In this document: positions 23,870 to 62,363 of the stretch, piece after piece
Layout: each line of letters begins with the position of its first letter
How positions within the stretch are numbered: position 1 is the stretch's first letter
Assembly (NCBI RefSeq): GCF_900090295.1
Contig: NZ_LT607753.1
Coordinates: 372,001 to 436,000 of the forward strand
Reading direction: 5' to 3'
Origin: Micromonospora coxensis
GTDB taxonomy: Bacteria; Actinomycetota; Actinomycetes; Mycobacteriales; Micromonosporaceae
Length of the DNA stretch: 64,000 nucleotides
The notes under the pieces: generated by a model
Databases searched by the model: none
The model's input: the letters and a program-made list of their open reading frames with translations, nothing else
What the model was told of the DNA's origin: nothing
Made by a program: the position numbers and the translations under genes

Positions 23870-23897
23870 GACACTCCGGCGTACCGCGGAAGGTTTC
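23870..23897 (-). promoter_or_regulatory. GAAACC-N17-GTGTC promoter, site a
   Basis: On the minus strand GAAACC (-35) and GTGTC (-10) are separated by exactly 17 bases, 56 bases before the start of the nucleoside-hydrolase-like gene. One of ten such elements in the window. Confidence 0.7.
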
Positions 23898-23927
23898 AGC
23901 CGGGGTTCACCCGGCGCCGGTCCCGGC

Positions 23928-23961
23928 GTGGCGCCGCGCCGTGGTCGCGGCGCGGCGCCAC
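23928..23961 (-). terminator. Terminator of beta-helix gene 23969
   Basis: A 14-bp perfect stem (GTGGCGCCGCGCCG and CGGCGCGGCGCCAC) with a 6-base loop starts eight bases beyond the stop codon of the leftward beta-helix gene. Confidence 0.7.
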
Positions 23962-23968
23962 GATCGCG

Positions 23969-25312
23969 TCACCGGCAGCCGGTGACCACGACCTTGTTGC
24001 CGGAGCTGTTGCCCCGGTGTTCGGTGTTGCTGGCGGTGCTGCGCACCATGGCGCACTGGCCGCCCTCCACCTTGACGGTCTTGTTGCGCACACCGTCCTG
24101 GAACACGTACAGCGGGGCGACCTTCATCCCGGGGTTCGTCCTGCGGATCAGCCCGTCACTGACGATGCGGATGGTGCGGCTGTCGGCCTTGACGCCGCCG
24201 GCCCAGGACACGACGCCCTGGTTGTAGATCGCCTCGGAGTTCGAGATCACGGTGAGGCCGTCGATCGTGAGCGTGCCGGTGCCGTAGTCGCCCCAGCCCA
24301 TCTGGATCGGCGCGCCGTTGCGGTTGTGCACGATCGTGGTGTTCCGGATGGTCAGGTCGCCGTTGTAGAGCTTCACCGAGTCGTCCCAGGTGTCGATGAA
24401 GGTGTTCTCGATGACCGAGTTCGCTCCGCCGCTGAAGCCGTCGGAGTTGTTGTTGCCGGCGTCCCGGTCGTCGATGTAGCGCATCCCGGAGACGAGCAGC
24501 TGCGCCTTCTTGGCGTGCATGTGGAAGATCCGGGGGTTGCGGGAGGTGTAGGTGCGCAGGGTGAGCTTGATCCGCGCCTCGGTGCTGACGCCGGCGAAGC
24601 TGTAGTCCTTGACGTGCGGTCCGTTGCCGACGACCTGCGACGTCTCGGCGTTCTCACCGGCGATCGTCAGCGGCTTCGTGCGGCCGGCCGGGATGAGGAA
24701 GTTGCCCTTGAGGGTGACCCCGGCGCCGATGACGATCCGCGACCACGAGTCCGGCACGGAGAACTTGTCGATGGTGCGGCTCGCGGTGAAGGTCGCCACG
24801 CCGTCGCGTACCGACGGGTTGGCCGCGTCGGGGGCCGGCGCGGCGTCCGGGGCGGACGTGGCCGACGGGCGCGGTGACGCGACGGGCGTGGCCGGGCCCG
24901 GGTCGGCGGCGACGTGCCGCACCGTGAAGCGTACGGTGCGGCTCGCCGTGCCGGCCGGACCGACCGCGTGGACGGTGAGGGTGTACGCCCCCTCCTGGAC
25001 CGTCGCGGGGTTCAGTCCCGGCGCGGCCTCACCGACGTTGCCCATGAAGTGGTACGGCGCGGCCCGCTCGGTCCACCGCACCGTGCTCGGCCCGGTCAGG
25101 TCGAAGTCCACCCGCTCGACCCGGCCCACGGTGCGGGCCTCGATACGCGCGGGGCCGCTGACCGTGGCTCCCTCGGCGACGCCCGTCACCGCGGTGATCT
25201 GGGGCGCCTCGGCGGCCGACGCCGACGGGACGACCGCCCAGATCCCGCCGGCCGCTGCCACCGCCAGTCCCGCCACAGCCCACCGTCGTCGTGTCCGGGG
25301 CATGCCACTCAT
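23969..25312 (-). CDS. Secreted parallel beta-helix protein with N-terminal Ig-like domain, copy A
   Basis: A 447-residue exported protein. The signal peptide (about 1-36) ends SASAAEAP; residues 38-130 look like a bacterial Ig-like domain (TAVTGVAEGATVSGPARIEA). After a Pro/Ala linker the rest is a right-handed beta-helix. NNNSDGFSGGANSVIENTFI and DTWDDSVKLYN place Asp residues in the arrangement seen in GH28/GH49-type polysaccharide hydrolases. It is a close paralogue of the protein at 37877. ATG at 25312 has GGGAG eight bases upstream. Likely a glycan hydrolase or lyase; substrate unknown. Confidence 0.7.
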   Translation of the reverse strand: MSGMPRTRRRWAVAGLAVAAAGGIWAVVPSASAAEAPQITAVTGVAEGATVSGPARIEARTVGRVERVDFDLTGPSTVRWTERAAPYHFMGNVGEAAPGLNPATVQEGAYTLTVHAVGPAGTASRTVRFTVRHVAADPGPATPVASPRPSATSAPDAAPAPDAANPSVRDGVATFTASRTIDKFSVPDSWSRIVIGAGVTLKGNFLIPAGRTKPLTIAGENAETSQVVGNGPHVKDYSFAGVSTEARIKLTLRTYTSRNPRIFHMHAKKAQLLVSGMRYIDDRDAGNNNSDGFSGGANSVIENTFIDTWDDSVKLYNGDLTIRNTTIVHNRNGAPIQMGWGDYGTGTLTIDGLTVISNSEAIYNQGVVSWAGGVKADSRTIRIVSDGLIRRTNPGMKVAPLYVFQDGVRNKTVKVEGGQCAMVRSTASNTEHRGNSSGNKVVVTGCR

Positions 25313-25366
25313 CCGTCGACTCCCAACTCGTGGCTTCCCGCGTCGGTCGCGGGAAGGCTCACCGGG

Positions 25367-25394
25367 GACACTCCGTCGGCGCTCCGGAGGTTTC
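25367..25394 (-). promoter_or_regulatory. GAAACC-N17-GTGTC promoter, site b
   Basis: Minus-strand -35 GAAACC and -10 GTGTC with a 17-base spacer, 55 bases before the beta-helix gene start. The -35 element overlaps the stop codon of the upstream GH114 gene (the TGA is part of TGAAACC). Confidence 0.7.
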
Positions 25395-26280
25395 AGCAGG
25401 CGTCGTAGACGTAGCGTCGGCTGCCCGGGACGCTGACCTGCACGTCTCGGCGGACCACGGAGAGTCTGTCCCCGACGGTGCGGCACGCCGTGCGGTACGC
25501 CTCGTCGGTGTACTCGATGACGATGACGTGGTTGCCGTAGACGTCGGTGTACCGGTCGCACTCGGTCCAGCGGGCGCACTCCTCGGCGACGGCGAAGTCG
25601 AGGCCGGCGTTCCTGCCGGCGGTGCCGAACTCGACGGTGTTCTTCTGCGCGACGGGCAGCGACGTGCGGTCGGCCCGGGCGGTGAGCAGCCGGACGTAGT
25701 CGAGGGCCTGGGCCCGGGTGAGGCGGCCCCGCGATCGCTGGTACGAGTCCATGTTGTCCGGTTCGACGGCCTGGAACCCGTCGCGGGCGCACCCGTCGAT
25801 CCAGCCGCCGACGATGCCGGCGAGCCGGGCCCGCTTGTCCGGGGTGGAGATGTCGAGCAGGATCTCGTTCCATCGCCCGTCGACGACGTAGCGGCCGGCG
25901 GCGTCGCGCAGCAGCAGGTCGTCGTGGTTCGCCTTCCACCAGGCCGTCTCCTGGGGTTGGGTCTGGAAGGCGTTGACGTAGCAGATCGTGTAGGCGCCGG
26001 CGGCGGGGACGTCCTCGCGGTCCCGGCTGACCACCCGTACCCCGGCGGGCAGCGGGTAGGCGCCGCCGATCTGGTAGTCGAACACGGCGTTCGCCGGGGG
26101 CAGCGTCACCGCTGCCGAGGCTGCGGTGACGCCGGGTGCGCCGAGCGCCTGGCGGGCCGGCGGCTCGGACCGCTGATCGGCGGAGGCGTCCGGCACCACC
26201 GACCATGTCGCGACGGCTGCCGTGGCGAGCAGGAGGGCGAGCGTGGCCGGCCGACGCCAGGTCCGGGACAGCGCGATCAT
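25393..26280 (-). CDS. GH114 family endo-alpha-1,4-polygalactosaminidase-like protein
   Basis: A 295-residue exported protein with a signal peptide (about 1-36, ending PDASADQ). The TIM-barrel shows GH114 hallmarks: FDYQIGGAYPLPAGV near residue 65, YTICYVNAFQTQ, RWNEILLDISTPDKR and GFQAVEPDNMDSY, the acidic residues of the latter being the likely catalytic site, plus VAQKNTVEF. GH114 enzymes cut alpha-1,4-linked galactosamine polymers such as fungal galactosaminogalactan. The start has AAGGAG six bases upstream. It is preceded by promoter site c and followed directly by the promoter of the beta-helix gene. Confidence 0.82.
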   Translation of the reverse strand: MIALSRTWRRPATLALLLATAAVATWSVVPDASADQRSEPPARQALGAPGVTAASAAVTLPPANAVFDYQIGGAYPLPAGVRVVSRDREDVPAAGAYTICYVNAFQTQPQETAWWKANHDDLLLRDAAGRYVVDGRWNEILLDISTPDKRARLAGIVGGWIDGCARDGFQAVEPDNMDSYQRSRGRLTRAQALDYVRLLTARADRTSLPVAQKNTVEFGTAGRNAGLDFAVAEECARWTECDRYTDVYGNHVIVIEYTDEAYRTACRTVGDRLSVVRRDVQVSVPGSRRYVYDAC

Positions 26281-26331
26281 CGGTGCTCCTTCGGGTCCGG
26301 TCACCGCCGAGATCGGGCGGGATCACCAACT

Positions 26332-26359
26332 GACACACCGGCACGGTGGTCGAGGTTTC
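26332..26359 (-). promoter_or_regulatory. GAAACC-N17-GTGTC promoter, site c
   Basis: Minus-strand GAAACC and GTGTC with a 17-base spacer, 52 bases before the GH114 start. Confidence 0.7.
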
Positions 26360-26416
26360 GGGTGCGCGGCGGGCGGCCCGGGAGCGTCCACCGACCGGGC
26401 CGGTCCGCCCGGTGCC

Positions 26417-26459
26417 GGAGGTCCGGCCGTGGACCACCGGGTCGCACGGCCGGACCTCC
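26417..26459 (-). terminator. Terminator of GH5-LPMO operon
   Basis: A 15-bp perfect stem (GGAGGTCCGGCCGTG and CACGGCCGGACCTCC) with a 13-base loop lies 36 bases beyond the LPMO stop on the minus strand. Confidence 0.65.
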
Positions 26460-26494
26460 TCCCCGCCCGTCCCCTGGCGGGAGTCGCGGCTGCC

Positions 26495-27487: not shown

Positions 27488-27516
27488 GGTCTGTCCTTCG
27501 CGGTTGAGCGGGCCGG

Positions 27517-29505: not shown

Positions 29506-29535
29506 GCCCTGTCCTTCGATGGTGGTGGAGATCGA

Positions 29536-29549
29536 TGGGAGCGCTTCCA
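29536..29549. promoter_or_regulatory. CebR-type operator upstream of GH5 gene
   Basis: TGGGAGCGCTTCCA, differing at one base from the perfect CebR palindrome TGGGAGCGCTCCCA known from Streptomyces and Thermobifida cellulase genes. The identical 14-mer precedes the GH6 gene at 58063. Confidence 0.8.
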
Positions 29550-36018: not shown

Positions 36019-37479
36019 TCAGCGCCGGACGATGTCGAACCGGTCCAGGTTGATCAGGTAGCCGCCGTCGCCCTCGAAGGTGAGGGTGACGCGCTGCTTC
36101 GTGCCGGCCTTGAGGTCGACGTCGGCGGTGACGGTACGCCAGGCTGTCCAGCCGCCGGTGCCGGCGGCGGTCGTGGCACCGACCTGCGTCTGGCCCTGCT
36201 CGACGCCGATCCGGCCGCCTGCCGCCGCCGATGCGTAGCGGAAGGTCATCTGGTGGCGTCCGGTGGCGGTGATGTCCACCTCGTAGCTGACCGAGGAGCC
36301 GTCGGTGAGGTACCCGATGCTGCGCCCGTCGGCGCCGGCGGTGGTCTCGATGCGGACGCCGCCCGTCTGCGAGGTGAAGTCCTCGGCCTGGATCCGGCCG
36401 GGGGCGCCTGGCGGGGTGCCGCCGTCCGGCGAGGTCACCTTGTTCACCCCCGTCGTGGTGTGCACGACCTTCTTCAGGCCGCCGTCGGTCCGGAAGTGCA
36501 GGTAGTCCACCGAGGCGTTGCGGCGGTATCCGGCACCGGGCTCGCCGGCGGCGTTGGTGTAGTTGCCGACGTGGTAGAAGTAGTACCACTTGTCGGCGTA
36601 CCGGATGATCGAGTGGTGGTCCTGCGCCCCGGCCGGCTTCGGTCCGACCGCTCCCTTGAGCTGGCCCGCGCCGCCGAACGGCCCGTACGGTGAGCTGCCG
36701 GTGGCCCAGAAGCCCTGATCGGTCTCGCCCTGCCAGTCGGTGTAGGTGAAGTAGTACGTGGTGCCCTTCTTGAAGACGAAGATGCCCTCCTTGTGGTTCG
36801 TCGCGCCGTAGTCGACCGCTCTCGGGCTCTCCGCCAGTTCGGTCATGTTGCTCTTGAGCTTGGCGACATACGGGATGTGCTTGGTGTGCCCGCCTTCGTT
36901 CTTCCAGCCGCTCCAGTACAGGTAGTAGTTGCTGCCGTCCTGCAGGACCATCGGGTCGATCCCGGAGATGTCCGGGATGTGGCGGCCGCTGTCGGCGAAC
37001 GGCCCCGCCGGGCTGTTCGCGGTGGCCACACCGATCCGCCAGGTCCCGTTCTTGTCCTTGTGCGGGTAGAACAGGTAGTTCGTCGTGCCCTTGCGGGCCG
37101 CGCCCGGCGCCCACATGTAGCCGCGCGAACCCCAGCTGACGTCTCGGGAGTGCAGGATCTCGCCGTGGTCGGTCCAGTTGACCATGTCGGTGGAGGAGAA
37201 GACGTGGTAGCCGTCCATCCCTGAGTAGTTCGTCGAGGAGTCGATCGGCGGTCGGTCCTGGGAGGTGTACATCCACACCCTGCCGTCCCACACGTGGACA
37301 TCCGGATCGGCGCCTCTGATGTTCTTCACGATCGGGTTGCCGGAGGTGACCGCGGCGGCGGTGCTGGTCTTGGGGGCCTGCTGCTGATCGGCGCTGGCGG
37401 AGGTGATGCCGGCGACCGCCATCCCGAACACGGTGACGGCGCCGACGGCTGCGGCGAGCAGCCTCCTTCTACTGGGCAC
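36019..37479 (-). CDS. Secreted GH43-family glycosidase with C-terminal CBM6
   Basis: A 486-residue exported protein. Signal peptide about 1-32 (ending TSASADQ). The five-bladed propeller begins NIRGADPDVHVWDGRVWMYT, where the Asp is the catalytic base of GH43, followed by GYMWAPGA, DISGIDPMVL and KEGIFVFKKG, the Glu being the likely acid. Residues about 360-486 form a CBM6 (RIQAEDFTSQTGGVRIE ... YLINLDRFDIVR). Expected to act on arabinan, xylan or galactan side chains; exact substrate unknown. GTG at 37479 has AAGGAG eight bases upstream. Promoter site e lies 75 bases upstream. Confidence 0.85.
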   Translation of the reverse strand: MPSRRRLLAAAVGAVTVFGMAVAGITSASADQQQAPKTSTAAAVTSGNPIVKNIRGADPDVHVWDGRVWMYTSQDRPPIDSSTNYSGMDGYHVFSSTDMVNWTDHGEILHSRDVSWGSRGYMWAPGAARKGTTNYLFYPHKDKNGTWRIGVATANSPAGPFADSGRHIPDISGIDPMVLQDGSNYYLYWSGWKNEGGHTKHIPYVAKLKSNMTELAESPRAVDYGATNHKEGIFVFKKGTTYYFTYTDWQGETDQGFWATGSSPYGPFGGAGQLKGAVGPKPAGAQDHHSIIRYADKWYYFYHVGNYTNAAGEPGAGYRRNASVDYLHFRTDGGLKKVVHTTTGVNKVTSPDGGTPPGAPGRIQAEDFTSQTGGVRIETTAGADGRSIGYLTDGSSVSYEVDITATGRHQMTFRYASAAAGGRIGVEQGQTQVGATTAAGTGGWTAWRTVTADVDLKAGTKQRVTLTFEGDGGYLINLDRFDIVRR

Positions 37480-37553: not shown

Positions 37554-37581
37554 AACACTCTCCAACCGCGCGGGCGGTTTC
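37554..37581 (-). promoter_or_regulatory. GAAACC-N17-GTGTT promoter, site e
   Basis: Minus-strand GAAACC and GTGTT with a 17-base spacer, 75 bases before the GH43 start. The last -10 base differs from GTGTC. Confidence 0.65.
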
Positions 37582-37786: not shown

Positions 37787-37814
37787 GAAACCTGGACCGA
37801 GGACGCGGGGTGTC
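37787..37814 (+). promoter_or_regulatory. GAAACC-N17-GTGTC promoter, site f
   Basis: Plus-strand GAAACC and GTGTC with a 17-base spacer, 63 bases before the beta-helix gene at 37877; the only plus-strand copy found. Confidence 0.7.
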
Positions 37815-37876: not shown

Positions 37877-39187
37877 ATGTCACGACGATCCTGGCGTCAG
37901 CTGGCAATTGCCGGCCTGGTGGTGGCTGCGGGTGGTGGGGCGTGGGCGGTGGTCCCGAGCGCCTCCGCCGACGACGCCCCGCGCATCACGCAGCTCGCCG
38001 GTGTCACCGAGGGCGCCACGCTGAGCGGCACGGCCCGGATCGAGGCGCGCACCAGCGGCACGGTCGACCGGGTGGAGTTCTCGCTCTCCGGGGCACGCAC
38101 GGTGACCTGGACCGAACGGCAGGCGCCCTGGTACTTCCTGGGCAACAACGGCACGATCGTGCCGGGCTGGGACGCGGCTACCGCGCCGGACGGCGCGTAC
38201 ACGCTGGCAGTGCGGGCGATCGGCCCCGGCGGCACCTCCCAGCAGACGGTACGGTTCACGGTCGGCCAGCAGCCCGGCAAGCCGGCGCCGACGCCGGCCC
38301 CGACGCCGACGACCGGCGGCCTCGCGAGCACGGCGAACCCGTCGGTCAGCAACGGGGTGGCGACGTTCACCGCGAACAAGACCATCGGCAAGCTGTCCGT
38401 ACCGGACTCCTGGACGGAGATCGTGATCGGCGCGGGAGTGACCCTGAAGGGCAACTTCTTCATCCCCGCCAACCGCACGAAGGCGTTGACGATCAACGGC
38501 CGGGACAAACAGACGTCGCAGTTGACCGGCGACGGCCCGCACGTCAAGGACTACGCCCGGGCCGGCGTGACCACCGAAGCGAAGATCAAGCTGACCCTGC
38601 GCAACTACACCTCGGTCAACCCGCGCTTCTACCACATGTGGGCCAGGCAGGCGCAGGTCGTCATGTCGGGCATGCGCTACATCGACAACCGGGACCTGGG
38701 CAGCAACAACTCCGACGGCTTCAGCGGCGGCGACAACTCGCTGATCGAGAACACCTTCATCGACACCTGGGACGACTCCGCCAAGCTCTACACGGGCGAC
38801 CTCACCATCCGGGACACCACGATCGTGCACAACCGCAACGGCGCGCCGATCCAGATGGCCTGGGGCGACTACGGGCAGGGCACCGCGATCCTGGACGGGT
38901 TGACCGTCATCTCCAACTCACCCGACATCTACAACCTGGGCGTCTTCTCCTGGGCCGGCGGCACGAAGGCCGACACCCGGACGATCAAGATCGTCGGTGA
39001 CGGATTCACCCGCAAGGTCAACCCCGGCATGGTCGAGGCGCCGCTCTACGCGTTCAGGGACGGCGTGAAGAACAAGACCATCCGGGTCGAGGGCGGCGAT
39101 TGCTCGGTGGTGCGCAGCACCTCCGCCAACACCTTCCAGGGCGCCAACACCTCCGGCAACAAGGTTGTCGTCACCGGCTGCAAGTGA
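37877..39187 (+). CDS. Secreted parallel beta-helix protein with N-terminal Ig-like domain, copy B
   Basis: A 436-residue exported protein with the same layout as copy A at 23969: signal peptide about 1-33 (ending SASADDAP), Ig-like domain (about 35-128), Pro/Thr linker, then a beta-helix. The segments NNSDGFSGGDNSLIENTFID and DTWDDSAKLYTGDLTIRDT are nearly unchanged between copies, so the Asp-containing presumed active site is under selection. Likely polysaccharide hydrolase or lyase of the GH28/GH49 type. GGAG lies upstream of the ATG; promoter site f drives it and a 15-bp terminator follows. Confidence 0.7.
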   Translation: MSRRSWRQLAIAGLVVAAGGGAWAVVPSASADDAPRITQLAGVTEGATLSGTARIEARTSGTVDRVEFSLSGARTVTWTERQAPWYFLGNNGTIVPGWDAATAPDGAYTLAVRAIGPGGTSQQTVRFTVGQQPGKPAPTPAPTPTTGGLASTANPSVSNGVATFTANKTIGKLSVPDSWTEIVIGAGVTLKGNFFIPANRTKALTINGRDKQTSQLTGDGPHVKDYARAGVTTEAKIKLTLRNYTSVNPRFYHMWARQAQVVMSGMRYIDNRDLGSNNSDGFSGGDNSLIENTFIDTWDDSAKLYTGDLTIRDTTIVHNRNGAPIQMAWGDYGQGTAILDGLTVISNSPDIYNLGVFSWAGGTKADTRTIKIVGDGFTRKVNPGMVEAPLYAFRDGVKNKTIRVEGGDCSVVRSTSANTFQGANTSGNKVVVTGCK

Positions 39188-40749: not shown

Positions 40750-41658
40750 TCACTTCAGTGTGTTGATGACGTCCTGCAGACGGCCGGCACTACGTGAGAA
40801 GGCCTTGTCGTTGCGCAGGCGGTGCGGCTGGTACTCCTTGCCGAGCCCGCCGAAGGTCTCGATGGCGCCGTTGTGTCCACGTGCGATCTTCTGACCGTTG
40901 GCTACCCGATCGAGCATCATCGTCACGATGTCGGCCGAGATGCCACCGGCTGCGACGACCAACTTTCGGAGGTTCTCGCTCCAGTTGCGGCCGTACTCGT
41001 CGTCGATGTGCGCCTCGGCCGCGAAGAACGGGCGGTAGAGCGTCGAGCCGAGTGCCATCGCGGTGTACATCTCGAAGTAGCTGATCGCGCCGTCACCCGG
41101 CAGCAGGCCTCTGCCGCCGTGGTCGGTGGAGACCGTGGCCACGATGGAGCTGAGGTGGGTGCGCAGGGCGTCCTTCTGCGTGGCGCTGAGCCCGGGGTGG
41201 CCGTTGACGCCCGGCTCTGTGCCGGTGACGATCGCGATGTACCGGTACGCGTGGTTGGCCTCGAACTGTGACAGCCCGGAGACCATGTACAGCCGCCCCT
41301 GGGGAGTGTTCTTGCTGGTGACCGGCCCCAGTGGGGTCGTGGGCGCCTTTGTCGTCGCGGCGGAATCGGGTCTGCTCGGCGCGTTGGAGGCCGAGGCGCT
41401 GCTGGTGCGCTGCGTGGGCGAGGCGCTCGGGACGCTGACCGAGGCTGACGTGATCGGGTTCGCCGCGGTGGCCGGGGGCTTCGTGGACGGGGCCACGGTG
41501 ACCCGGGTGTCGCCCGGTTCGCACCCGCCGCTCGCCCCGCCGAGGGCGGCGATCACCATCAGCGCGGCGACCCGCGATCGCCGTCGGACGGTCCACGCGA
41601 CGTCGGCCCTGCTGACGGGGCTGGGCGGCCGGTTCTGATTCTGGCGTTGAAGGTTCAC
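40750..41658 (-). CDS. Exported protein of unknown function, probably leaderless mRNA
   Basis: About 302 residues from GTG 41658. After a basic N-terminal stretch a hydrophobic segment (RVAALMVIAALGGASGGC) suggests an exported, possibly lipid-modified protein although the lipobox is weak. A Ser/Thr/Pro-rich linker leads to a compact domain (about 130-302) with YRYIAIVTGTEPGVNGHPG, GDGAISYFEMYTAMALGSTL and EYGRNWSENLRKLVVAAGG; no family is recognised. The GTG is only six bases beyond the -10 of promoter site k, so the transcript is probably leaderless. A longer frame upstream would run through the promoter and is rejected. Confidence 0.6.
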   Translation of the reverse strand: MNLQRQNQNRPPSPVSRADVAWTVRRRSRVAALMVIAALGGASGGCEPGDTRVTVAPSTKPPATAANPITSASVSVPSASPTQRTSSASASNAPSRPDSAATTKAPTTPLGPVTSKNTPQGRLYMVSGLSQFEANHAYRYIAIVTGTEPGVNGHPGLSATQKDALRTHLSSIVATVSTDHGGRGLLPGDGAISYFEMYTAMALGSTLYRPFFAAEAHIDDEYGRNWSENLRKLVVAAGGISADIVTMMLDRVANGQKIARGHNGAIETFGGLGKEYQPHRLRNDKAFSRSAGRLQDVINTLK

Positions 41659-41664: not shown

Positions 41665-41692
41665 GGCACTCCGCACGCCCGCGCCAGGTTTC
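41665..41692 (-). promoter_or_regulatory. GAAACC-N17-GTGCC promoter, site k
   Basis: Minus-strand GAAACC and GTGCC with a 17-base spacer, between the GerMN gene of cassette 2 and the unknown exported gene; start codon six bases after the -10. The same string GCGCCAGGTTTCAC (plus strand) recurs at the orphan site near 59313. Confidence 0.6.
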
Positions 41693-41728: not shown

Positions 41729-42508
41729 TCAGTCGGGAACCTGATCGTGGAGTATGCCGACGTAGAAGGCTCGCTGGTCGCCGCGGACGGAGAACCGTGC
41801 CTGCGTGATCCAGCCGAACTGTTCCAGGGTGCGGCGCATCGGTTCCAGCAGCTTGGTCTTCTCGCAGCTGTCGTCCGGGGCCAGGATGCCGTCGAGATCG
41901 GTGAAGTCCGCCCGCGCGTTCGTCCCGTCCAGCTTCAGGTAGCGGAAGCGGTGGGCGTCACCGTCGAAGGCGCTGGTCAGGCCCGCCGCGCGATCGGCGG
42001 GCGTGGGGCCGTCGAGCAGCGCCCGCAGGGCCTCTCTGGCGACGCTGCGGGCCGGGACCTCCCGGGTCACCGCGACGATCTGCGGGCAGCGCTGGCCGGC
42101 CTGCTCACGGAGCAGGAACAGCTTCACCTGACGGGTGCCGATGGTCGGCTCGGTCGCCGGTTGTATCGGACCGCCGGTCTCCGTCGTCCGGGCGCTCGCC
42201 GTCGCGGTAGGTGGGACATCCGCCGGACCGGACGGCGAGGGCACCGGCGCCTGCGCGGCGGGGGCCGTCGGTGCGGGAGCGGCGAGCCGCGGCTCGCGCG
42301 TCGGTGCGGCCGTCACGCCCACGCCAACGGGAACGGCCACCATCGCCGCGGCGACCAGGCCGGCCGCGGCGACGGAGCGAACGCGGCGACGGCGTGCGCG
42401 GTGGCTCAGGTCGCCCAGGTCCGGTGGACGTGCGGTGTCGGCGGCAGTCCCGGCCATCCGGCGCAGCGCATCGCGCATCGCCTCGCCGTCCGGAATTCCG
42501 TCAGTCAC
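41729..42508 (-). CDS. GerMN-domain membrane-anchored protein (cassette 2)
   Basis: A 259-residue paralogue of the protein at 22045: Arg-rich cytoplasmic head (about 1-45), one membrane helix (about 46-65), Pro/Ala/Ser linker, then the GerMN-like domain starting near QVKLFLLREQAGQRCPQIV and containing ALRALLDGPTPADRAAGLTS. GTG 42508 was chosen by homology with the other two cassettes (all start V-[ST]-DG) and has GAGGGG six bases upstream. Divergent from the sigma factor at 42686. The tail, from DGDAHRFRYLKLDG to RAFYVGILHDQVPD, is conserved across the three copies, which argues all are functional. Confidence 0.82.
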   Translation of the reverse strand: MTDGIPDGEAMRDALRRMAGTAADTARPPDLGDLSHRARRRRVRSVAAAGLVAAAMVAVPVGVGVTAAPTREPRLAAPAPTAPAAQAPVPSPSGPADVPPTATASARTTETGGPIQPATEPTIGTRQVKLFLLREQAGQRCPQIVAVTREVPARSVAREALRALLDGPTPADRAAGLTSAFDGDAHRFRYLKLDGTNARADFTDLDGILAPDDSCEKTKLLEPMRRTLEQFGWITQARFSVRGDQRAFYVGILHDQVPD

Positions 42509-42547: not shown

Positions 42548-42576
42548 TTGACGCTGCCGCATTAATCACATACCGT
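42548..42576 (+). promoter_or_regulatory. Conserved promoter of sigma gene, cassette 2
   Basis: TTGACG, 17 bases, TACCGT, about 110 bases before the sigma gene start. Shares CCGTTTGACG and AATCACATAC blocks with the other two cassettes. Confidence 0.7.
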
Positions 42577-42685: not shown

Positions 42686-43204
42686 ATGTCGACAGATCGG
42701 GATTTCACCGAGTTCTACCTGGCCACGTACCGTCGGCTGGTGGGTCAGCTGTTCGTGCTGACCGGTAACCGTCACGACGCTGAGGAGCTTGCTCAGGAGG
42801 CGTTCTCCCGTGCTCTGCCCCGGTGGGCGAAGATCAGCGGCTACGAGGCGCCGGAGGCGTGGGTCCGGCGGGTCGCCTTCAACCTCGCGTTCTCCCGGCG
42901 CCGTAGGGCGCTGCGCGGCGCGGCCGCCCTGCTGCGCCTCGGTGCCGATCGGTCCCACGACGACGACGGCACCGACGGTGTCGCCGTCACCGAGGCGCTG
43001 CGGGCGGTGCCGGTACGGCACCGGCAGGCACTGGTGCTGCACTATGTCGTCGACCTCCCCGTGCGGGACGTGGCTACCGAGCTGGGTGTTCCGGAGAACA
43101 CCGTCAAGACGTGGCTGCGACGGGGCCGCCAGCAGTTGCACGCGGCGCTGCGGGTAGACGAGTCGACCGGGACCAGCGAACTCCTCGCCCACCTTCGCCC
43201 CTGA
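42686..43204 (+). CDS. SigE-family RNA polymerase sigma factor (cassette 2)
   Basis: A 172-residue SigE-family sigma factor. Region 2 carries FTEFYLATYRRLVGQLFVLT and DAEELAQEAFSRALPRWAKI; region 4 carries LHYVVDLPVRDVATELGVPE and TVKTWLRRGRQQLHAAL. The copies at 60363 and 21335 are its close paralogues; cassettes 2 and 3 are most alike. The start region GTGTCGAGAGGTCCGATGTC matches cassette 1, giving confidence in the ATG. No anti-sigma factor with a zinc motif is adjacent; the divergent GerMN protein is the only conserved partner. A shared terminator separates it from the GH49-like gene. Confidence 0.9.
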   Translation: MSTDRDFTEFYLATYRRLVGQLFVLTGNRHDAEELAQEAFSRALPRWAKISGYEAPEAWVRRVAFNLAFSRRRRALRGAAALLRLGADRSHDDDGTDGVAVTEALRAVPVRHRQALVLHYVVDLPVRDVATELGVPENTVKTWLRRGRQQLHAALRVDESTGTSELLAHLRP

Positions 43205-43250: not shown

Positions 43251-45188
43251 TCACCGCAACGGCTGGCCGTCGATGGTGACGCCGCTGACGGCACCGCTGA
43301 CGCTGAGCTTTCCGACGGTGCCGGCGTTGGTGGCGGTGACCCGCCTGCCGTCGATGACGAGGCCGCTGATCGTCACCCCGGCGATGCGGGTGCCGGGGCG
43401 TGCGGAGATCGTGTTGCGGCCGGTGACCGGCCCGTCGACGCGCAGCCCGGCGATGGTGATGTCGCCGATGGTGCCGGTGGCGGAGTCGGTGAACATCACG
43501 TGCAGAGCCTGGGGTACCCCGTGGTCGATACGGACGTCTTCGAAGCGCAGGCCGCTGATGGCGTGATTCTCGGCGTAGCGCCAGACGACGGCCGCGCCGA
43601 GAGCGGGCCGGTCGGCACGCCATTCCGCCCGGACGACGTCGATGCGGCGCCAGGTGTTGGCCGTGGCGGCTCCGGTGGGGATCTTCCATCCGGAGATGGC
43701 CACCCCACCGTTGGCGTGCTGCCACACCACGCAGTTCTCCACGAGCGTGTTGCTGCTCATCGTGCGCAGGCTGTCGTCGCCGGCCCGGACGAAGCAGTCG
43801 CGGACCCGGGTGCCCTCGCGCAGGTGGATGCCGTCGTTGTTGCCGCTCCAGCCGAAGATCTTCACGCCGGAGATCTCCCAGTCGGCGGCGGTGACGATGT
43901 TGAAGTGGGAGGCGTTGACCAGGGTCGGGCCGGAGACCGCCTTGGCTTCGGCGGCCTTGCCGAAGCCGGCCCAGATCATCGCCGCGTCGTCCGCGGGGTT
44001 CGACTTGCGGGCCGCGTAGCGGAAACCGTCACCGGCGAGCACACCGTGCCCGACCACCCGGCCGCCGGTCACCCCGGCGAGGTCGATCTTGCCGTAGACG
44101 TAGGCGCCCCGGTCGAGGTAGACGGTGTCCTTGCCCGGCAGGGTGGCCAACCTGAGGATGCCCCGGCCGGCCGGGTCGCCGCCGATCCGGTGTTCGCCCG
44201 GACCGAAGTAGACGACGTTCGGGGCGTTCCTGGCGACCTCGAAGTCGGTGGTCAGGTCCACGTTGACGTGCATCGAGTGCAGGTCCGAGCCGGTGTCCCC
44301 GCCGAAATGCACGCTGATCCACCTGTTGCCGCCGGTCACCGGGAACGTCACCGTCTTGCGATCGGCGGACAGGGCCGTCGGCCGGATGCCGTAACGGTGC
44401 GGACGGATGTCGACGCCGGCCAGGGAGGGGAAGGTCCGGCCGTCGGTGAGGCTGACCGACACCTCGGTCGTGTCGGTCGCGCCTTGGGCGTAGCCGGTGA
44501 AGGACACCGTCCGTAGCGCCCCGGAGGGCGTCGGCGGCCACTTCGCCAGCTGTACGGTCTTGCCGTCGTCGCCGGTGAACCGTGATCCGTCGATCTGGTA
44601 CACCTTCGGGCGTACCGTCTGGTCCGCGGTACGCACCGAGACGCGGTAGTGGGTCGAGGACGGTCCGACGACCGTGTCCGGCGCGAACTGCACGGTACGG
44701 GCCGATACCGCCGAGGACGGCGGCTCCGGAGCGGGCCCGGCCGGGGCCGGCGCGGACGGGACGGCCGGCCGCGATGGCGAAGCGGCTGCGCTGGGCGTGA
44801 CGCCGCCGGCCGATGCGTCGATCCGCTCGATCAGTATCCGGCTGGCGCGGTCGTTGAGCGGGCTGCCGCAGAAGTCCTCGTCCTTGGTCAGCACCACCAG
44901 CGGGTCGGCGGAGTCGCTTCGGTCGAAGACCGACACCCGGAACCCCGCGGCGACCCGAACACCGCTGACATCGTCGTCGGGCGCCCGCCCGGCGAGATCG
45001 TGGTCGCCGATGTCGAGCGGGACGGGACGCCACTGGTCACCGGCGGCGAAGCCGCAGCGGTCGGTCAACTCCACCGGTGCCGCGACGTCGTCGGCGGCGT
45101 GCACCGTCGCCACCCCGGCCAGCGCCATTCCCACGGCGACCGCGGCGGCCGCGATAGCTCCTGCTGTTCGTCGCGAACTGCGTGACAT
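43251..45188 (-). CDS. Secreted GH49-like (dextranase-type) beta-helix glycosidase
   Basis: A 645-residue exported protein. Signal peptide about 1-31 (ending TVHAADD); an N-terminal domain of about 110 residues with DEDFCGSPLNDRASRI; Pro/Ala/Ser linker; then a beta-sandwich (about 150-320) and right-handed beta-helix (about 330-645). VYFGPGEHRIG and LPGKDTVYLDRGAYVYGKID are typical of GH49 and related GH28-type enzymes, and NNDGIHLREGTRVRDCFV and AGDDSLRTM give the catalytic Asp arrangement. Probably an endo-hydrolase of alpha-glucan or a related exopolysaccharide. GAGGAG before the ATG; promoter site h lies 53 bases upstream. Confidence 0.75.
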   Translation of the reverse strand: MSRSSRRTAGAIAAAAVAVGMALAGVATVHAADDVAAPVELTDRCGFAAGDQWRPVPLDIGDHDLAGRAPDDDVSGVRVAAGFRVSVFDRSDSADPLVVLTKDEDFCGSPLNDRASRILIERIDASAGGVTPSAAASPSRPAVPSAPAPAGPAPEPPSSAVSARTVQFAPDTVVGPSSTHYRVSVRTADQTVRPKVYQIDGSRFTGDDGKTVQLAKWPPTPSGALRTVSFTGYAQGATDTTEVSVSLTDGRTFPSLAGVDIRPHRYGIRPTALSADRKTVTFPVTGGNRWISVHFGGDTGSDLHSMHVNVDLTTDFEVARNAPNVVYFGPGEHRIGGDPAGRGILRLATLPGKDTVYLDRGAYVYGKIDLAGVTGGRVVGHGVLAGDGFRYAARKSNPADDAAMIWAGFGKAAEAKAVSGPTLVNASHFNIVTAADWEISGVKIFGWSGNNDGIHLREGTRVRDCFVRAGDDSLRTMSSNTLVENCVVWQHANGGVAISGWKIPTGAATANTWRRIDVVRAEWRADRPALGAAVVWRYAENHAISGLRFEDVRIDHGVPQALHVMFTDSATGTIGDITIAGLRVDGPVTGRNTISARPGTRIAGVTISGLVIDGRRVTATNAGTVGKLSVSGAVSGVTIDGQPLR

Positions 45189-45240: not shown

Positions 45241-45268
45241 AACACTCCGCACCCGTCCCTGCCGTTTC
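45241..45268 (-). promoter_or_regulatory. GAAACG-N17-GTGTT promoter, site h
   Basis: Minus-strand GAAACG and GTGTT with a 17-base spacer, 53 bases before the GH49-like gene. Confidence 0.65.
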
Positions 45269-45386: not shown

Positions 45387-46607
45387 TCAGCTCACGGTGA
45401 AGCTGTCGACATCGAGGAGGAAGCCGGCGCCGCCGGTGAAGACCAGGTGCAGCGGCCCGGTTCCGGTGCCCGACAGCGACGTCGAGACGGTCCGGTAGGT
45501 CGTCCAGCCGCCGGTGGCGGGCACGTCGACCGAGCCGAGCAGCTCGCCCGTGGGCGAGCCGGAACGCACCTCGATGGTGCCGCCCGAGGTGCCGGAGGCC
45601 ACCCGGGCGGAGAACTGCGTCCGGCCGGCCGTAGACACCTGGGCGTAGCCGGCCCAGTCACCGTCGTTCACATAACCCGCCGTGGCGCCGCCCTGCGCCG
45701 GGGCGTGGAAGGCCACCTGCACCCCCGAGTTCGACGTGAACGACTCACCCTGCACGGTCTGCGGCGACGTTCCACCGCCGGGCGCGGTGAGGAAGGTGCG
45801 CAGCTTGTTGGCGTTGCCGGAGTCGTCGCCGGTGATCAGGTAGTACATCATTCCGGCGTCGGAGACGTCACCCTTCTTGTTCATGATGTTGTTGACGACG
45901 TTGTGCACGTAGCGCAGCCGCTGGTCGGAGTTGTCGGCCATCCAGGACCACTTCGCCTCGCCGCCACCGGTGCCCAGACCGGCGTTCTGATCCGGGATCC
46001 TCTTGTACTTCACCTGCGGGAAGTCCCGACGGATGTCGGCGAGGTTCCACCGGTTGTCGTCGTCGTCGTGATTGTTGTTCCAGTCCGAGTGCGAGATCAG
46101 CGTGACATGCTGACGCGCCGCGCTGTTCGAGCCCTGCAACGCCCGGTACACCACCCCCATCGGGCCGGCACCGACCAGGCAGAGCTGGTTGGTGGCGGTG
46201 GAGGCGTCGACCGCCGAACGCAGATGGGTCACCGCCGCGTTGAGATTCGTCTGGCTGTTGCGGAAGATCCCGGCCACGTCGTAGCCGAACCGCCCGCCGA
46301 CACCCTCGGTGGCGGTGACCATGTCCCGCTCCCAACTCGCCGTCGAGCTGCCCAGGTGCGAGTTGTAGTCCCAGTGCACCAACCGCGACTGCTGCCCCCG
46401 CTCGGCGAGCAACGCCAACGCCATCGCCGACGCGCCGATGTCGTCACGATCGTGGTAGTTACCGTCCGAACTCCAGGCGATCCGCTCACAACCGAAATCG
46501 AGAGCCGGCGGCGCAGCCTGCGCAGGCTGCCCGGTCAACGCGACAACGGCACCGAGCCCGAGAGCACAGGCCGCAGCCGCGAGGCCAGGACGGGAGATCC
46601 GTGACAT
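45387..46607 (-). CDS. Secreted nucleoside-hydrolase-like protein with C-terminal CBM6, copy C
   Basis: A 406-residue exported protein: signal peptide about 1-31 (ending PAQAAPP), a domain (about 35-278) with AWSSDGNYHDRDDIGASAMA, an Asp-rich motif like that of nucleoside-hydrolase folds, and ISHSDWNNNHDDDD, and a C-terminal CBM6 (about 285-406; GESFTSNSGVQVAFHAP to GAGFLLDVDSFTVS). Similar proteins occur in polysaccharide-degrading bacteria. The first 277 residues are identical to the protein at 60978, which lacks the CBM6. AAGGA precedes the ATG; promoter site i lies 84 bases upstream. Confidence 0.75.
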   Translation of the reverse strand: MSRISRPGLAAAACALGLGAVVALTGQPAQAAPPALDFGCERIAWSSDGNYHDRDDIGASAMALALLAERGQQSRLVHWDYNSHLGSSTASWERDMVTATEGVGGRFGYDVAGIFRNSQTNLNAAVTHLRSAVDASTATNQLCLVGAGPMGVVYRALQGSNSAARQHVTLISHSDWNNNHDDDDNRWNLADIRRDFPQVKYKRIPDQNAGLGTGGGEAKWSWMADNSDQRLRYVHNVVNNIMNKKGDVSDAGMMYYLITGDDSGNANKLRTFLTAPGGGTSPQTVQGESFTSNSGVQVAFHAPAQGGATAGYVNDGDWAGYAQVSTAGRTQFSARVASGTSGGTIEVRSGSPTGELLGSVDVPATGGWTTYRTVSTSLSGTGTGPLHLVFTGGAGFLLDVDSFTVS

Positions 46608-46649
46608 CAGAGGTCCTTCCAGTACGAGGGAGTAATCACCGCCCGGCCA
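45777..46649 (-). repeat. 873-bp duplication, copy 1
   Basis: Appears base-for-base identical to 60999-61871 (offset 15222). It covers the nucleoside-hydrolase-like domain, signal peptide, start and most of the leader. Similarity continues in diverged form through the promoter (to about 46720). Identity ends at the junction to the CBM6 part. Confidence 0.85.
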
Positions 46650-46690
46650 GGGCCGGGTGCTGTCGGCCCCGGCCGGGCGGCTCACAGACA

Positions 46691-46718
46691 GACACCCCGG
46701 TACGCGGACGAAGGTTTC
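46691..46718 (-). promoter_or_regulatory. GAAACC-N17-GTGTC promoter, site i
   Basis: Minus-strand GAAACC and GTGTC with a 17-base spacer, 84 bases before gene copy C. Followed downstream by CTGTCTGTGAG, conserved at site j. Confidence 0.7.
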
Positions 46719-55921: not shown

Positions 55922-55924
55922 AGG

Positions 55925-58062: not shown

Positions 58063-58076
58063 TGGGAGCGCTTCCA
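58063..58076. promoter_or_regulatory. CebR-type operator upstream of GH6 gene
   Basis: TGGGAGCGCTTCCA, identical to the 14-mer before the GH5 gene (29536-29549); about 245 bases before the GH6 start. Confidence 0.8.
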
Positions 58077-58231
58077 TCGCAATACCTGAATGGGAAATGA
58101 ATTATGCCTTCGTCCGTGACGGAGACAAGATCCGCCACCTTTACGGTCCACATCGAGGTCAGAGCATGTGCATCTCCGGCATGCCACCCACCACCGTCGG
58201 CGACGGCAGGGCGCTATTCGGCCGCCGCCGG

Positions 58232-58243
58232 TGAAATGTTTCA
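58232..58243. promoter_or_regulatory. LacI-type palindrome TGAAATGTTTCA
   Basis: Near-palindrome of the TGAAA-TTTCA class with a short centre; about 410 bases upstream of the GH6 start. Function uncertain. Confidence 0.3.
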
Positions 58244-59295: not shown

Positions 59296-59323
59296 GACAC
59301 CCCGGTCCCGCGCGCCAGGTTTC
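59296..59323 (-). promoter_or_regulatory. Orphan GAAACC-N17-GTGTC promoter, site l
   Basis: Minus-strand GAAACC and GTGTC with a 17-base spacer, directed away from cassette 3 into a region with no recognised gene. The local string GCGCCAGGTTTCAC also occurs at site k next to cassette 2. Confidence 0.55.
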
Positions 59324-59394
59324 ACCGTGCAGAAGATTTCCGACAGCGTCCTCGATGCAGCTCCCGGCAGGTGGTCGCCGCCGACGGGAGGCGG

Positions 59395-60189
59395 TCAGTC
59401 GGGTACACGGTCGTGCAGGACATCGACGTAGAAGGCCCGCTGGTCACCGCGGACGGAGAAGCGGGCCTGCTCGATCCAGTCGAACTGCTCCAGCGTGCGT
59501 CGCATCGGCTCCAGCAGCTTGGCCTTCTCGCACCTGTCTCCGGGGGCCAGGATCCCGTCGAGGTCAGTGAAGTCGGCCCGGGCTTGCGGCCCGTCCAGCT
59601 TCAGATAGCGGAAGCGGTGGGAGTCGTCGTCGAAGACGCTGGTCAGGCCGGCAGCACGCTCGGCTCGGGTCGGACCGTCGAGCAGAGCGCGCAACGCCTC
59701 CTTGGCGACGGCCCGCGCCGGCACACCCCGGGTCACCGCGACCACCTGCGGGCAGGTCTGGCCGGGCCGTTGGCGCAGGAGGAACAGCTGGACCGTCCGG
59801 GTACCGGTGGTCGGCTCGGCTGCCGGTTGGAGCGACTCGTCCACCTCCGGCGGGGTAGCGCCCGCAGTGGCGGGAGGCACCGGGATCGACGGGCGAGCAG
59901 ACCCCACCGTCGGTGCGGACGCGGTGGGCGCGGTCGATGCGGGCGCGGTCGATGCGGGAGCGGCCACCTGCGGGCGCTGGGGCGACGCGGTCACCGCGGC
60001 CACGCCGGCCGGGAGGGCCACCATCACCACAGCGAGCAGGCCCGTCACCGCGCTCACGTGGGCACGGCGTCGGCGCGCCCGGCGACGCAGGTCGTCCGGA
60101 TCAGGTGGTCGTGCGGCGTCGGCGGCGGCCCCGGCCAGGTGGCGGAGGGTGTCGGGAGACACTCCTCCGTCCTGAAATCCGTCAGTCAC
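59395..60189 (-). CDS. GerMN-domain membrane-anchored protein (cassette 3)
   Basis: A 264-residue paralogue of the proteins at 22045 and 41729: Arg-rich cytoplasmic head (about 1-45), membrane helix (about 47-66), an Ala/Thr/Pro linker with repeated APASTAPAST-like units, then the GerMN-like domain (TVQLFLLRQRPGQTCPQVVA, ALRALLDGPTRAERAAGLTS) ending RGDQRAFYVDVLHDRVPD. GTG 60189 has GAGGAG six bases upstream and matches the start context of cassette 2. Divergent from the sigma factor at 60363. Promoter site l lies immediately beyond its stop. Confidence 0.82.
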   Translation of the reverse strand: MTDGFQDGGVSPDTLRHLAGAAADAARPPDPDDLRRRARRRRAHVSAVTGLLAVVMVALPAGVAAVTASPQRPQVAAPASTAPASTAPTASAPTVGSARPSIPVPPATAGATPPEVDESLQPAAEPTTGTRTVQLFLLRQRPGQTCPQVVAVTRGVPARAVAKEALRALLDGPTRAERAAGLTSVFDDDSHRFRYLKLDGPQARADFTDLDGILAPGDRCEKAKLLEPMRRTLEQFDWIEQARFSVRGDQRAFYVDVLHDRVPD

Positions 60190-60228
60190 CGTCGTCTCCT
60201 CAGGGCGTGATCTTGGGGAATTCACCGT

Positions 60229-60257
60229 TTGACGTATCAGTTCTTATCACATACGGT
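60229..60257 (+). promoter_or_regulatory. Conserved promoter of sigma gene, cassette 3
   Basis: TTGACG, 17 bases, TACGGT, about 105 bases before the sigma gene. TATCACATAC and GCAATCGTTACTTA blocks match cassette 2 closely. Confidence 0.7.
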
Positions 60258-60362
60258 GCAATCGTTACTTATCTGGATGATTCGGATCATCCAGGTCGGA
60301 CGGTCGCCACCCGAACACGCGCCCCCGTGCCGCGCGTGGTGTGGCAGGTGTCGAGGGGTCCG

Positions 60363-60878
60363 ATGTCGACAGAGCGGGATTTCACCGAGTTCTACCTGGC
60401 CACGTACCGTCGCCTGGTAGGTCAGCTGTTCGTGCTGACCGGCAGCCGTCACGACGCCGAGGAACTCGCTCAGGAGGCGTTCTCCCGCGCACTGCTCCGG
60501 TGGGCGAAGATCAGCGGATACGAGGCGCCCGAGGCATGGGTACGCCGCGTCGCGTTCCACCTGGCCTTCTCCCGGCGCCGCAAGGCGTTGCGCGGTGCTC
60601 ACGCCCTGCTGCGCCTCGGCACCAGTCGCACCCACCACGACGACGGCAGTGACAGCGTCGCCGTCGTCGAGGCCCTGCGGGCGGTGCCGGTACGGCACCG
60701 ACGGGCACTGGTCCTGCACTACGTCGTCGACCTTCCCGTCCGCGACGTGGCCGCCGAGTTGGGCGTACCCGAGAACACCGTCAAGACCTGGCTGCGGCGC
60801 GGCCGCCAGCAGTTGCAGGCCGCCTTGTTGGACGACACGACGCCCACCGACGCACTCCTCCTCCACCTGCGGCCCTGA
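60363..60878 (+). CDS. SigE-family RNA polymerase sigma factor (cassette 3)
   Basis: A 171-residue SigE-family sigma factor, closest to that at 42686. Region 2: FTEFYLATYRRLVGQLFVLT and DAEELAQEAFSRALLRWAKI; region 4: LHYVVDLPVRDVAAELGVPE and TVKTWLRRGRQQLQAALL. The most variable parts of the three copies are the linker between regions 2 and 4 and the last 15 residues, while the region 4 recognition helix is the same in all three, so they may recognise the same promoter. Start ATG by alignment with cassettes 1 and 2. Divergent GerMN partner at 59395. Confidence 0.9.
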   Translation: MSTERDFTEFYLATYRRLVGQLFVLTGSRHDAEELAQEAFSRALLRWAKISGYEAPEAWVRRVAFHLAFSRRRKALRGAHALLRLGTSRTHHDDGSDSVAVVEALRAVPVRHRRALVLHYVVDLPVRDVAAELGVPENTVKTWLRRGRQQLQAALLDDTTPTDALLLHLRP

Positions 60879-60882
60879 CCGG

Positions 60883-60913
60883 CACCGCGGCACCGCGGCA
60901 CCGCGGCACCGCG
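60883..60913. repeat. 8-bp tandem repeat CACCGCGG, about four units
   Basis: CACCGCGG units begin at 60883, 60891, 60899 and 60907 (last incomplete), directly after the sigma gene stop. Confidence 0.8.
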
Positions 60914-60923
60914 AACGAGATCA

Positions 60924-60958
60924 CGCCGGTGGTGGGTGTGCGACACCCACCACCGGCG
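60924..60958. terminator. Terminator of nucleoside-hydrolase-like gene copy D
   Basis: A 16-bp perfect stem (CGCCGGTGGTGGGTGT and ACACCCACCACCGGCG) with a 3-base loop, sharing its core with the terminator of copy C at 45330-45366. Confidence 0.75.
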
Positions 60959-60977
60959 AGCCCCGGTGACTGGACGG

Positions 60978-61829
60978 CTACGAGGAGACCCGGCCGCTGC
61001 CGGGCGCGGTGAGGAAGGTGCGCAGCTTGTTGGCGTTGCCGGAGTCGTCGCCGGTGATCAGGTAGTACATCATTCCGGCGTCGGAGACGTCACCCTTCTT
61101 GTTCATGATGTTGTTGACGACGTTGTGCACGTAGCGCAGCCGCTGGTCGGAGTTGTCGGCCATCCAGGACCACTTCGCCTCGCCGCCACCGGTGCCCAGA
61201 CCGGCGTTCTGATCCGGGATCCTCTTGTACTTCACCTGCGGGAAGTCCCGACGGATGTCGGCGAGGTTCCACCGGTTGTCGTCGTCGTCGTGATTGTTGT
61301 TCCAGTCCGAGTGCGAGATCAGCGTGACATGCTGACGCGCCGCGCTGTTCGAGCCCTGCAACGCCCGGTACACCACCCCCATCGGGCCGGCACCGACCAG
61401 GCAGAGCTGGTTGGTGGCGGTGGAGGCGTCGACCGCCGAACGCAGATGGGTCACCGCCGCGTTGAGATTCGTCTGGCTGTTGCGGAAGATCCCGGCCACG
61501 TCGTAGCCGAACCGCCCGCCGACACCCTCGGTGGCGGTGACCATGTCCCGCTCCCAACTCGCCGTCGAGCTGCCCAGGTGCGAGTTGTAGTCCCAGTGCA
61601 CCAACCGCGACTGCTGCCCCCGCTCGGCGAGCAACGCCAACGCCATCGCCGACGCGCCGATGTCGTCACGATCGTGGTAGTTACCGTCCGAACTCCAGGC
61701 GATCCGCTCACAACCGAAATCGAGAGCCGGCGGCGCAGCCTGCGCAGGCTGCCCGGTCAACGCGACAACGGCACCGAGCCCGAGAGCACAGGCCGCAGCC
61801 GCGAGGCCAGGACGGGAGATCCGTGACAT
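60978..61829 (-). CDS. Secreted nucleoside-hydrolase-like protein without CBM, copy D
   Basis: A 283-residue exported protein identical to residues 1-277 of the copy at 45387 (signal peptide ending PAQAAPP, GNYHDRDDIGASAMALALLA, ISHSDWNNNHDDDD), then six unrelated residues (SGRVSS) and a stop where copy C continues into its linker and CBM6. The enzyme is therefore a single-domain secreted version. Promoter site j lies 83 bases upstream and the terminator core is shared with copy C, so the whole transcription unit was duplicated and the CBM6 part lost here or gained there. Confidence 0.78.
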   Translation of the reverse strand: MSRISRPGLAAAACALGLGAVVALTGQPAQAAPPALDFGCERIAWSSDGNYHDRDDIGASAMALALLAERGQQSRLVHWDYNSHLGSSTASWERDMVTATEGVGGRFGYDVAGIFRNSQTNLNAAVTHLRSAVDASTATNQLCLVGAGPMGVVYRALQGSNSAARQHVTLISHSDWNNNHDDDDNRWNLADIRRDFPQVKYKRIPDQNAGLGTGGGEAKWSWMADNSDQRLRYVHNVVNNIMNKKGDVSDAGMMYYLITGDDSGNANKLRTFLTAPGSGRVSS

Positions 61830-61871
61830 CAGAGGTCCTTCCAGTACGAGGGAGTAATCACCGCCCGGCCA
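60999..61871 (-). repeat. 873-bp duplication, copy 2
   Basis: Partner of 45777-46649. All translated frames across it agree between copies, so the DNA is identical or almost identical, which implies very recent duplication or gene conversion. Confidence 0.85.
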
Positions 61872-62363
61872 AGGCCGGGTACTGTCGGCCCGGCCAGGCG
61901 GCTCACAGACAGACACCCCGGTACGGGGGTGGAGGTTTCAACCGAAATCGGGGGTCCTGCTCGGGCAGGTCGGCCGCCCGGACCACGGCGAGGCCGAGCC
62001 GCCAATCCGGTCACGTACCGCTCGAACGTGTCCGGGCGCGGCGTTCCGGGCCAGGTAGCTGACCGGGTGGGCCTGTCGGGGTGGTCGCAGACCGGTCGGC
62101 ACAGGCAGCGGCCACGCCGCGTGCTCGCCCGCGCCCGCTCGGCGAGGCACGGTGGTGGTGATCTTCACCCGGGGCGCTGCCGTGGCACCCGCTGGCTACG
62201 CGGACGCGCCCACGCGGTCGCCAGGCCGGTGACGACGACGGCGCCCAGGGCCGACCTCCGGGTCCGAGTGGCGATCGGCGTTCACGTGATGCCGCCCGCA
62301 ACTGCCCGTCGGTGACGGGGTGTCGGTGCAGGCGTTGGCGCCCCGGACCTCGCCCGGCACGAA
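61830..62363. other. 534-bp intergenic region
   Basis: Apart from promoter site j and the leader of copy D nothing recognisable was seen; open frames here have no protein signature. Confidence 0.5.
61912..61939 (-). promoter_or_regulatory. GAAACC-N17-GTGTC promoter, site j
   Basis: Minus-strand GAAACC and GTGTC with a 17-base spacer, 83 bases before gene copy D; the spacer differs from site i in its first half while both signal elements are unchanged. Confidence 0.7.

Follow-up and report, generated by a model that had tools for sequence, protein, structure and literature searches.

A stretch of 64,000 nucleotides of Micromonospora coxensis, hereafter the window (C1:372001-436000 of a one-contig 6.77-Mb genome, labelled G000 in the genus set), carries repeated copies of a two-box element, GAAAC(C/G)-N17-GTG(T/C), that very probably constitutes the promoter of an extracytoplasmic function (ECF) sigma factor regulon of secreted proteins, read by an ECF clade encoded in the window itself and probably restrained by candidate anti-sigma factors of the GerMN type. 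An ECF-type promoter had been suggested in an initial annotation made from the letters, and it remains the favoured explanation; the present analysis adds a probable regulator with its probable membrane partner, a comparison of their occurrence across genomes, and one further site, the fifteenth. The pairing of promoter site and sigma factor is well supported. From linkage and co-occurrence we infer that the sigma factor binds the element, and it is likewise conjectured from sequence that the GerMN protein acts as anti-sigma factor and responds to an outside signal.

The window holds ten matches of the element where 0.14 would be expected, a number reached by none of 100 shuffled sequences, and all ten sit where they had originally been reported. 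When the distance between GAAAC and GTGY is left free between 10 and 25 bases, the window has 16 matches where 7.3 would be expected, a count equalled in 4 of 100 shuffled sequences. This excess is weak; it is the fixed 17-base spacing alone that is significant. Over 184 kb surrounding the window, GAAACC and GTGT stand 17 bases apart twelve times, while every other spacing from 5 to 30 bases occurs at most once. The first description held that only the two boxes and their distance are kept, and the spacers are indeed dissimilar, but alignment of the 14 sites in the cluster described below reveals a wider conserved motif, tGAAACCt-N12-CGGrGTGTC. In leave-one-out scoring with a weight matrix, these 14 sites obtain 19.9-34.1, as against 14.6 for the highest unrelated place in the 184 kb with spacers of 16-18 bases allowed (matrix scans covered these 184 kb and the retrieved loci). 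The target promoters combine an AAC-type -35 box with a short -10 box, at a spacing within the 16-18 range typical of ECF promoters.

A genome-wide scan, which the initial annotation had proposed as a check, returned a clustered and not a random-like distribution. Nineteen matches of the exact pattern occur in the genome, 14 of them within 395,870-490,853, a segment of about 95 kb, for which the binomial chance is about 1e-22. The fifteenth site, at 3,556,875, lies about 3.1 Mb from the cluster with a matrix score of 26.8, and stands 55 nt before the gene of a 445-amino-acid (aa) secreted beta-helix protein resembling the targets of the 25367 and 37787 sites; the remaining four matches outside the cluster score 3.6-16.0 and fall inside open frames. 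The four cluster sites beyond the window precede a gene by 60, 73, 75 and about 314 nt. What had been called a candidate new secretome regulon holds as an ECF-type regulon of secreted proteins, but not as a genome-wide programme: in essence it consists of a single accessory island, joined by one or more genes far away.

Within the window, nine of the ten sites lie 6-83 nt upstream of a start codon (the range had been put at 6-84 bases), and the encoded N-termini are, as judged by eye, signal peptides or membrane anchors. Three minus-strand sites open the series: 23870-23897, 55 nt before the ATG of a secreted 323-aa protein with no Pfam or PDB match (22843-23814, minus strand); 25367-25394, 54 nt before the ATG of a secreted beta-helix-like protein of 447 aa whose Pfam match is below cut-off (23969-25312, minus); and 26332-26359, 51 nt before the ATG of a secreted protein of glycoside hydrolase (GH) family GH114 (25393-26280, minus). 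Further on, the site at 37554-37581 (minus) is 74 nt before the GTG of a secreted GH43-CBM6 protein (36019-37479, minus), and that at 37787-37814, on the plus strand, is 62 nt before the ATG of a secreted dextranase-like beta-helix protein with partial dextranase similarity (37877-39187, plus). The remaining sites are again on the minus strand. That at 45241-45268 stands 52 nt before the ATG of a secreted GH49/dextranase-isopullulanase-like protein (43251-45188, minus), that at 46691-46718 stands 83 nt before the ATG of a secreted 406-aa protein with a C-terminal CBM6 (45387-46607, minus), and that at 61912-61939 stands 82 nt before the ATG of a shortened duplicate of the latter gene (60978-61829, minus; 283 aa, without CBM6). 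At 41665-41692 the site is followed 6 nt downstream by a GTG start, the position of which is conserved in two relatives, of a lipoprotein-like or membrane-anchored module companion of unknown fold (40750-41658, minus), and the site at 59296-59323 occupies the place that this leaderless gene has in module 2. Target families comprise GH114, GH43-CBM6, DUF1996, three dextranase/GH49-like proteins, a CBM6-bearing protein, a lipoprotein-like protein and unknowns; at least 8 of the 15 sites precede glycoside-hydrolase-like, beta-helix or CBM6 proteins, the beta-helix relatives being judged by eye.

Downstream of the boxes, the aligned letters point to a start of transcription. Among 30 related sites (14 of this genome, the other 16 from relatives), 90% have a pyrimidine at offset 34, and 83% have a purine at each of offsets 35 and 36; GTGTC ends at offset 27, leaving 7-8 bases up to this pyrimidine-purine step. 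For the companion gene 40750-41658, three genomes place the start codon, GTG or ATG, 6-7 bases behind the element, an arrangement expected of a leaderless transcript. In the leader of the 45387-46607 gene (46608-46690), a very stable hairpin begins at offset 37, directly behind the predicted start, in all seven leaders folded; it shows paired changes between species, as judged by eye, and may protect the mRNA 5' end. The copies 45387-46718 and 60978-61939 are near-identical over a stretch that begins at the -10 box and ends at about codon 278, and are unrelated on either side of it, the second being the one without the CBM6 part, which looks like a recent duplication or gene conversion ending within the promoter spacer.

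The candidate readers of the element are three ECF paralogues, of 173 aa (21335-21856, minus strand), 172 aa (42686-43204, plus) and 171 aa (60363-60878, plus), that are 77-87% identical to each other. The next closest ECF elsewhere in the genome is 46% identical, and there are no further close copies. All three score above cut-off for Pfam Sigma70_r2 and Sigma70_r4_2 and for TIGR02937 and contain no sigma3 family, which at about 170 aa is the domain composition of ECF group IV; their sigma domains stand alone, excluding a fusion of the ECF52/ECF53 type. The recognition helix is identical in all eight members of the clade, and the three copies should therefore read one promoter. The best solved-structure match is SigW, whose -35 box is TGAAAC, and the SigW/SigM promoters of Bacillus subtilis have the form TGAAAC-N16/17-CGTA/CGTC. 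The present element shares with these the -35 box and the spacing class; it differs in its -10 box, (A/G)GTG(T/C), as do the regulon and the partner protein.

Each sigma gene is arranged head-to-head with a gene for a membrane protein carrying a GerMN (Germane, PF10646) domain, a pairing found in all eight modules compared. These candidate anti-sigma factors and sensors are encoded at 22045-22797 (plus strand), 41729-42508 (minus, with a GTG start at 42508 assigned from conservation) and 59395-60189 (minus, start likewise from conservation). In each, a short N-terminus leads through Arg-rich and then hydrophobic stretches to a Pro-rich linker, which is followed by the GerMN domain. PF10646 scores of 30.9, 30.3 and 27.8 bits exceed the cut-off of 23, and it is the sole Pfam family at E<=0.01 in the three partners, which at that threshold show no RsgI-type anti-sigma domain. 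The genome search returned three such GerMN proteins, and the site cluster or its immediate surroundings contain all three ECF and all three GerMN genes. Among named clusters of GerMN homologues, eight of nine belong to Micromonospora and one to Verrucosispora (8000 candidates sharing most words were scored). A fold search with the GerMN model gave no match at E<=0.001 and a weak similarity to B. subtilis GerM (6gzb, probability 0.92, E 0.16). The model predicts helices at residues 7-24 and 31-57, the second running into the hydrophobic stretch, and these two N-terminal helices, in a low-confidence region of the model, resemble the class II anti-sigma factor CnrY, in which two linked helices form a short cytoplasmic region ahead of a membrane helix (PMC7406223). 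The GerMN protein is probably both anti-sigma factor and sensor.

Related ECF factors offer a comparison. Beside nine other ECFs, an automatic search for an N-terminus of the GerMN type returned a single frame, which was spurious; at the six of these nine loci open to parsing, however, the following gene, read by eye, always shows a layout like that of the GerMN protein. The SigE family (TIGR02983, SigE-fam_strep) is the best NCBIfam match of the window ECFs and resembles them in this next-gene layout at the six parsed loci, but the window ECFs score 127.3, 127.4 and 122.3 bits against its cut-off of 141.55, their partner is divergent and not downstream, and the outside domain is GerMN.

The sigma genes themselves are preceded by a conserved housekeeping-type promoter: TTGACG-N17-TAGCGT towards ECF 1 (21973-22001, minus strand), TTGACG-N17-TACCGT towards ECF 2 (42548-42576, plus) and TTGACG-N17-TACGGT towards ECF 3 (60229-60257, plus), with TTGACG-N17-TASSGT present in the sigma-GerMN intergenic stretch of all eight modules. 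Autoregulation of the sigma genes through a GAAACC promoter was considered and rejected, no intergenic site exceeding the matrix thresholds. With a housekeeping-type promoter and no GAAACC site there, the sigma protein is therefore likely present all the time and controlled after synthesis. In the mechanism proposed, the sigma genes would be transcribed from the housekeeping-type promoter, and the product would probably be kept inactive by the divergent GerMN protein, which is predicted to cross the membrane once and to have a short cytoplasmic end. A signal from outside, plausibly linked to polysaccharide, would release the sigma factor, and the three-copy clade would then read the element, with tGAAACC as -35 and (A/G)GTG(T/C) as -10 box, initiating at a purine some 7-8 nt after GTGTC and turning on about fifteen promoters, mostly for secreted proteins.

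Comparison across the genus links the sites with the sigma clade. The clade is present in 5 of 160 Micromonospora genomes, counted as the own genome and then 4 of 40, 0 of 60 and 0 of 59. A strict pattern, GAAACS-N13-CGGR-GTGYY, occurs in 24 of the 160, its reversed control giving two matches overall. The tightest form, GAAACC-N13-CGGR-GTGT[CT], is found in 5/5 clade genomes and in 2/155 others (Fisher 2.6e-8), figures to be read in the light that this form was refined on G000, Micromonospora maritima and Micromonospora endolithica with the GTGT[CT] ending picked post hoc, that only G064 and G041 are independent for it, and that the genomes share descent. Related loci include three from two Micromonospora species. 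In four relatives the sites are grouped around the module, and orthologues of six targets have one in front of them, in one case with GAAACT. Pairwise identity across orthologous promoters is 0.93 in the -35 box and 0.99 in GTGTC, as against 0.62 in the spacer and 0.46 upstream; conservation before orthologues, which the initial annotation had named as a further check, is thus a property of the boxes, and the spacers drift. Among the matches listed, a different recurring match, GAAACCGGCTCAGGACGGTGAGGGTGTC with near variants, appears in several Micromonospora genomes; one of this type, at G000:C1:5752042, sits in an open frame.

The dependence of the tightest form on the genomes that shaped it weighs against the sigma-promoter interpretation, as do several further observations. 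Locally, the site at 59296 has no convincing gene behind it, that at 490826 is the one lying about 314 nt from a gene, the matrix scan finds no GAAACC site ahead of the sigma genes, so that the common autoregulatory loop is absent, and the GerMN model has low confidence in its cytoplasmic part (pLDDT 39-63 over residues 1-60). Across the genus, the loose pattern GAAACS-N17-GTGTY does not discriminate, with at least one match in 143 of 151 genomes, and G078 and G049, which have neither the clade nor a strict site, contain 11 and 10 loose matches against 15 in G000; these two may have a different ECF that reads a similar promoter. Strict matches in genomes without the clade (28-base scores of 24.2 in G048, 22.8 in G080 and 22.7 in G036) overlap the weaker matches of clade genomes (23.8-24.2), and G098 and G126 have one tight site each without the clade. 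From G098:C39:54708 onward, the promoter is kept without the sigma clade while its target gene is disrupted, as though it had decayed once the regulator was lost; at the G126 site no target homologue was found in 40 kb. Either site may be a relic. Of 194 genomes outside the genus, 7 contain one tight match each, and three of these matches score above 20 (L099 28.9, L102 23.4 and L098 21.6). The L099 match was taken as chance, since the 300 nt behind it contain no start of a frame of 100 aa; the L098 and L102 matches lie in open frames.

An improbable alternative is that the element is an operator or activator site of another transcription factor, LacI-type or other. In its favour, a LacI-family gene is present in the window, more LacI-like N-termini appear downstream (by eye), and the adjoining cellulase genes have CebR-like boxes. 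The initial annotation had stated that the cellulase genes GH5/LPMO (lytic polysaccharide monooxygenase) and GH6 lack the element and carry CebR boxes instead. The GAAACC site is indeed missing from the GH5, LPMO and GH6 genes; the boxes, at 29536 and 58063 ahead of the GH5 and GH6 cellulase genes, are near-matches to the CebR consensus, and four such boxes with at most two mismatches occur in the window against 0.74 expected, with 2 of 100 shuffles reaching four. The element and the CebR cellulose regulon have a common neighbourhood and secreted polysaccharide enzymes as targets, but CebR-like boxes stand ahead of the cellulases and ECF sites ahead of another set. Against an operator, the letters reveal no dyad and no direct repeat; the two boxes are unlike each other, at an exact 17-base distance and a fixed distance before the pyrimidine-purine step; the column table of aligned sites has no conserved TAnnnT -10 box; and the sigma clade tracks the sites, in a co-occurrence comparison that covered the sigma genes.

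Less probable still is that the promoter is read by another SigE-like ECF common in the genus, the window ECFs being there by coincidence. Genus genomes do hold several ECFs 39-50% identical to those of the window, and most of these genomes also contain the loose pattern, but ECFs at E<=1e-25 occur in 39 of 40 genus genomes tested, whereas the tight form is confined to the five clade genomes and two others. Equally remote is the notion that the sites are hitchhikers of one promoter duplicated along with a paralogous enzyme family, with no present regulon, for although the 46691 and 61912 sites stem from a recent duplication and several targets are beta-helix paralogues, the targets include the unrelated families GH114, GH43, DUF1996 and GH49-like, and the boxes hold across species while spacers and flanks are dissimilar.

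With the ECF promoter regulon as the preferred reading, a fuller picture can be drawn tentatively, its chances slightly below even: GerMN would be the outer sensor of an anti-sigma factor, the companion a leaderless lipoprotein under the control of the regulon, and the three modules, with one promoter type, part of a polysaccharide-degrading island gained and lost as a unit within Micromonospora. The companion protein (40750-41658) has no Pfam or PDB match and eight homologue clusters, and its predicted model, with a mean pLDDT of 34, is unusable for assigning a fold. Seven of the eight clusters apparently lie on contigs with GerMN homologues, so the companion and GerMN genes are probably linked. 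Two database versions of the protein begin at internal Met codons, the leaderless start perhaps having been missed. In the window, no Rfam family reaches its gathering score and no tRNA was found.

Control of glycan degradation by ECF and anti-sigma factors is known in Bacteroides and clostridia, with SigI/RsgI of C. thermocellum as an example, and ECF52/53 fusions with carbohydrate-binding parts have been predicted, unvalidated, in actinobacteria (PMC10766802). As in the Bacteroides and SigI/RsgI systems, the sigma factor of glycan-degrading genes would here be held by a membrane protein that exposes a domain to the outside. Unlike the Bacteroides and SigI/RsgI cases, the present one is actinobacterial, with GerMN outside, a divergent gene order, triplicated sigma factors that seemingly share a promoter type, and a narrow range. 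A literature search of titles and abstract starts returned nothing on this Micromonospora regulon, and one on GAAACC with ECF promoters in Streptomyces returned Sphingomonas work only. What is new is the sigma clade and its promoter, not the mechanism. In actinobacteria, LacI-type repressors such as CebR are mostly credited with controlling secreted polysaccharide enzymes. Promoter code, sigma clade and candidate sensor are assigned together, and an ECF switch with an unusual type of sensor appears to govern a secreted set beside cellulases that have CebR-like boxes, offering a handle towards the substrate of several uncharacterised beta-helix proteins.

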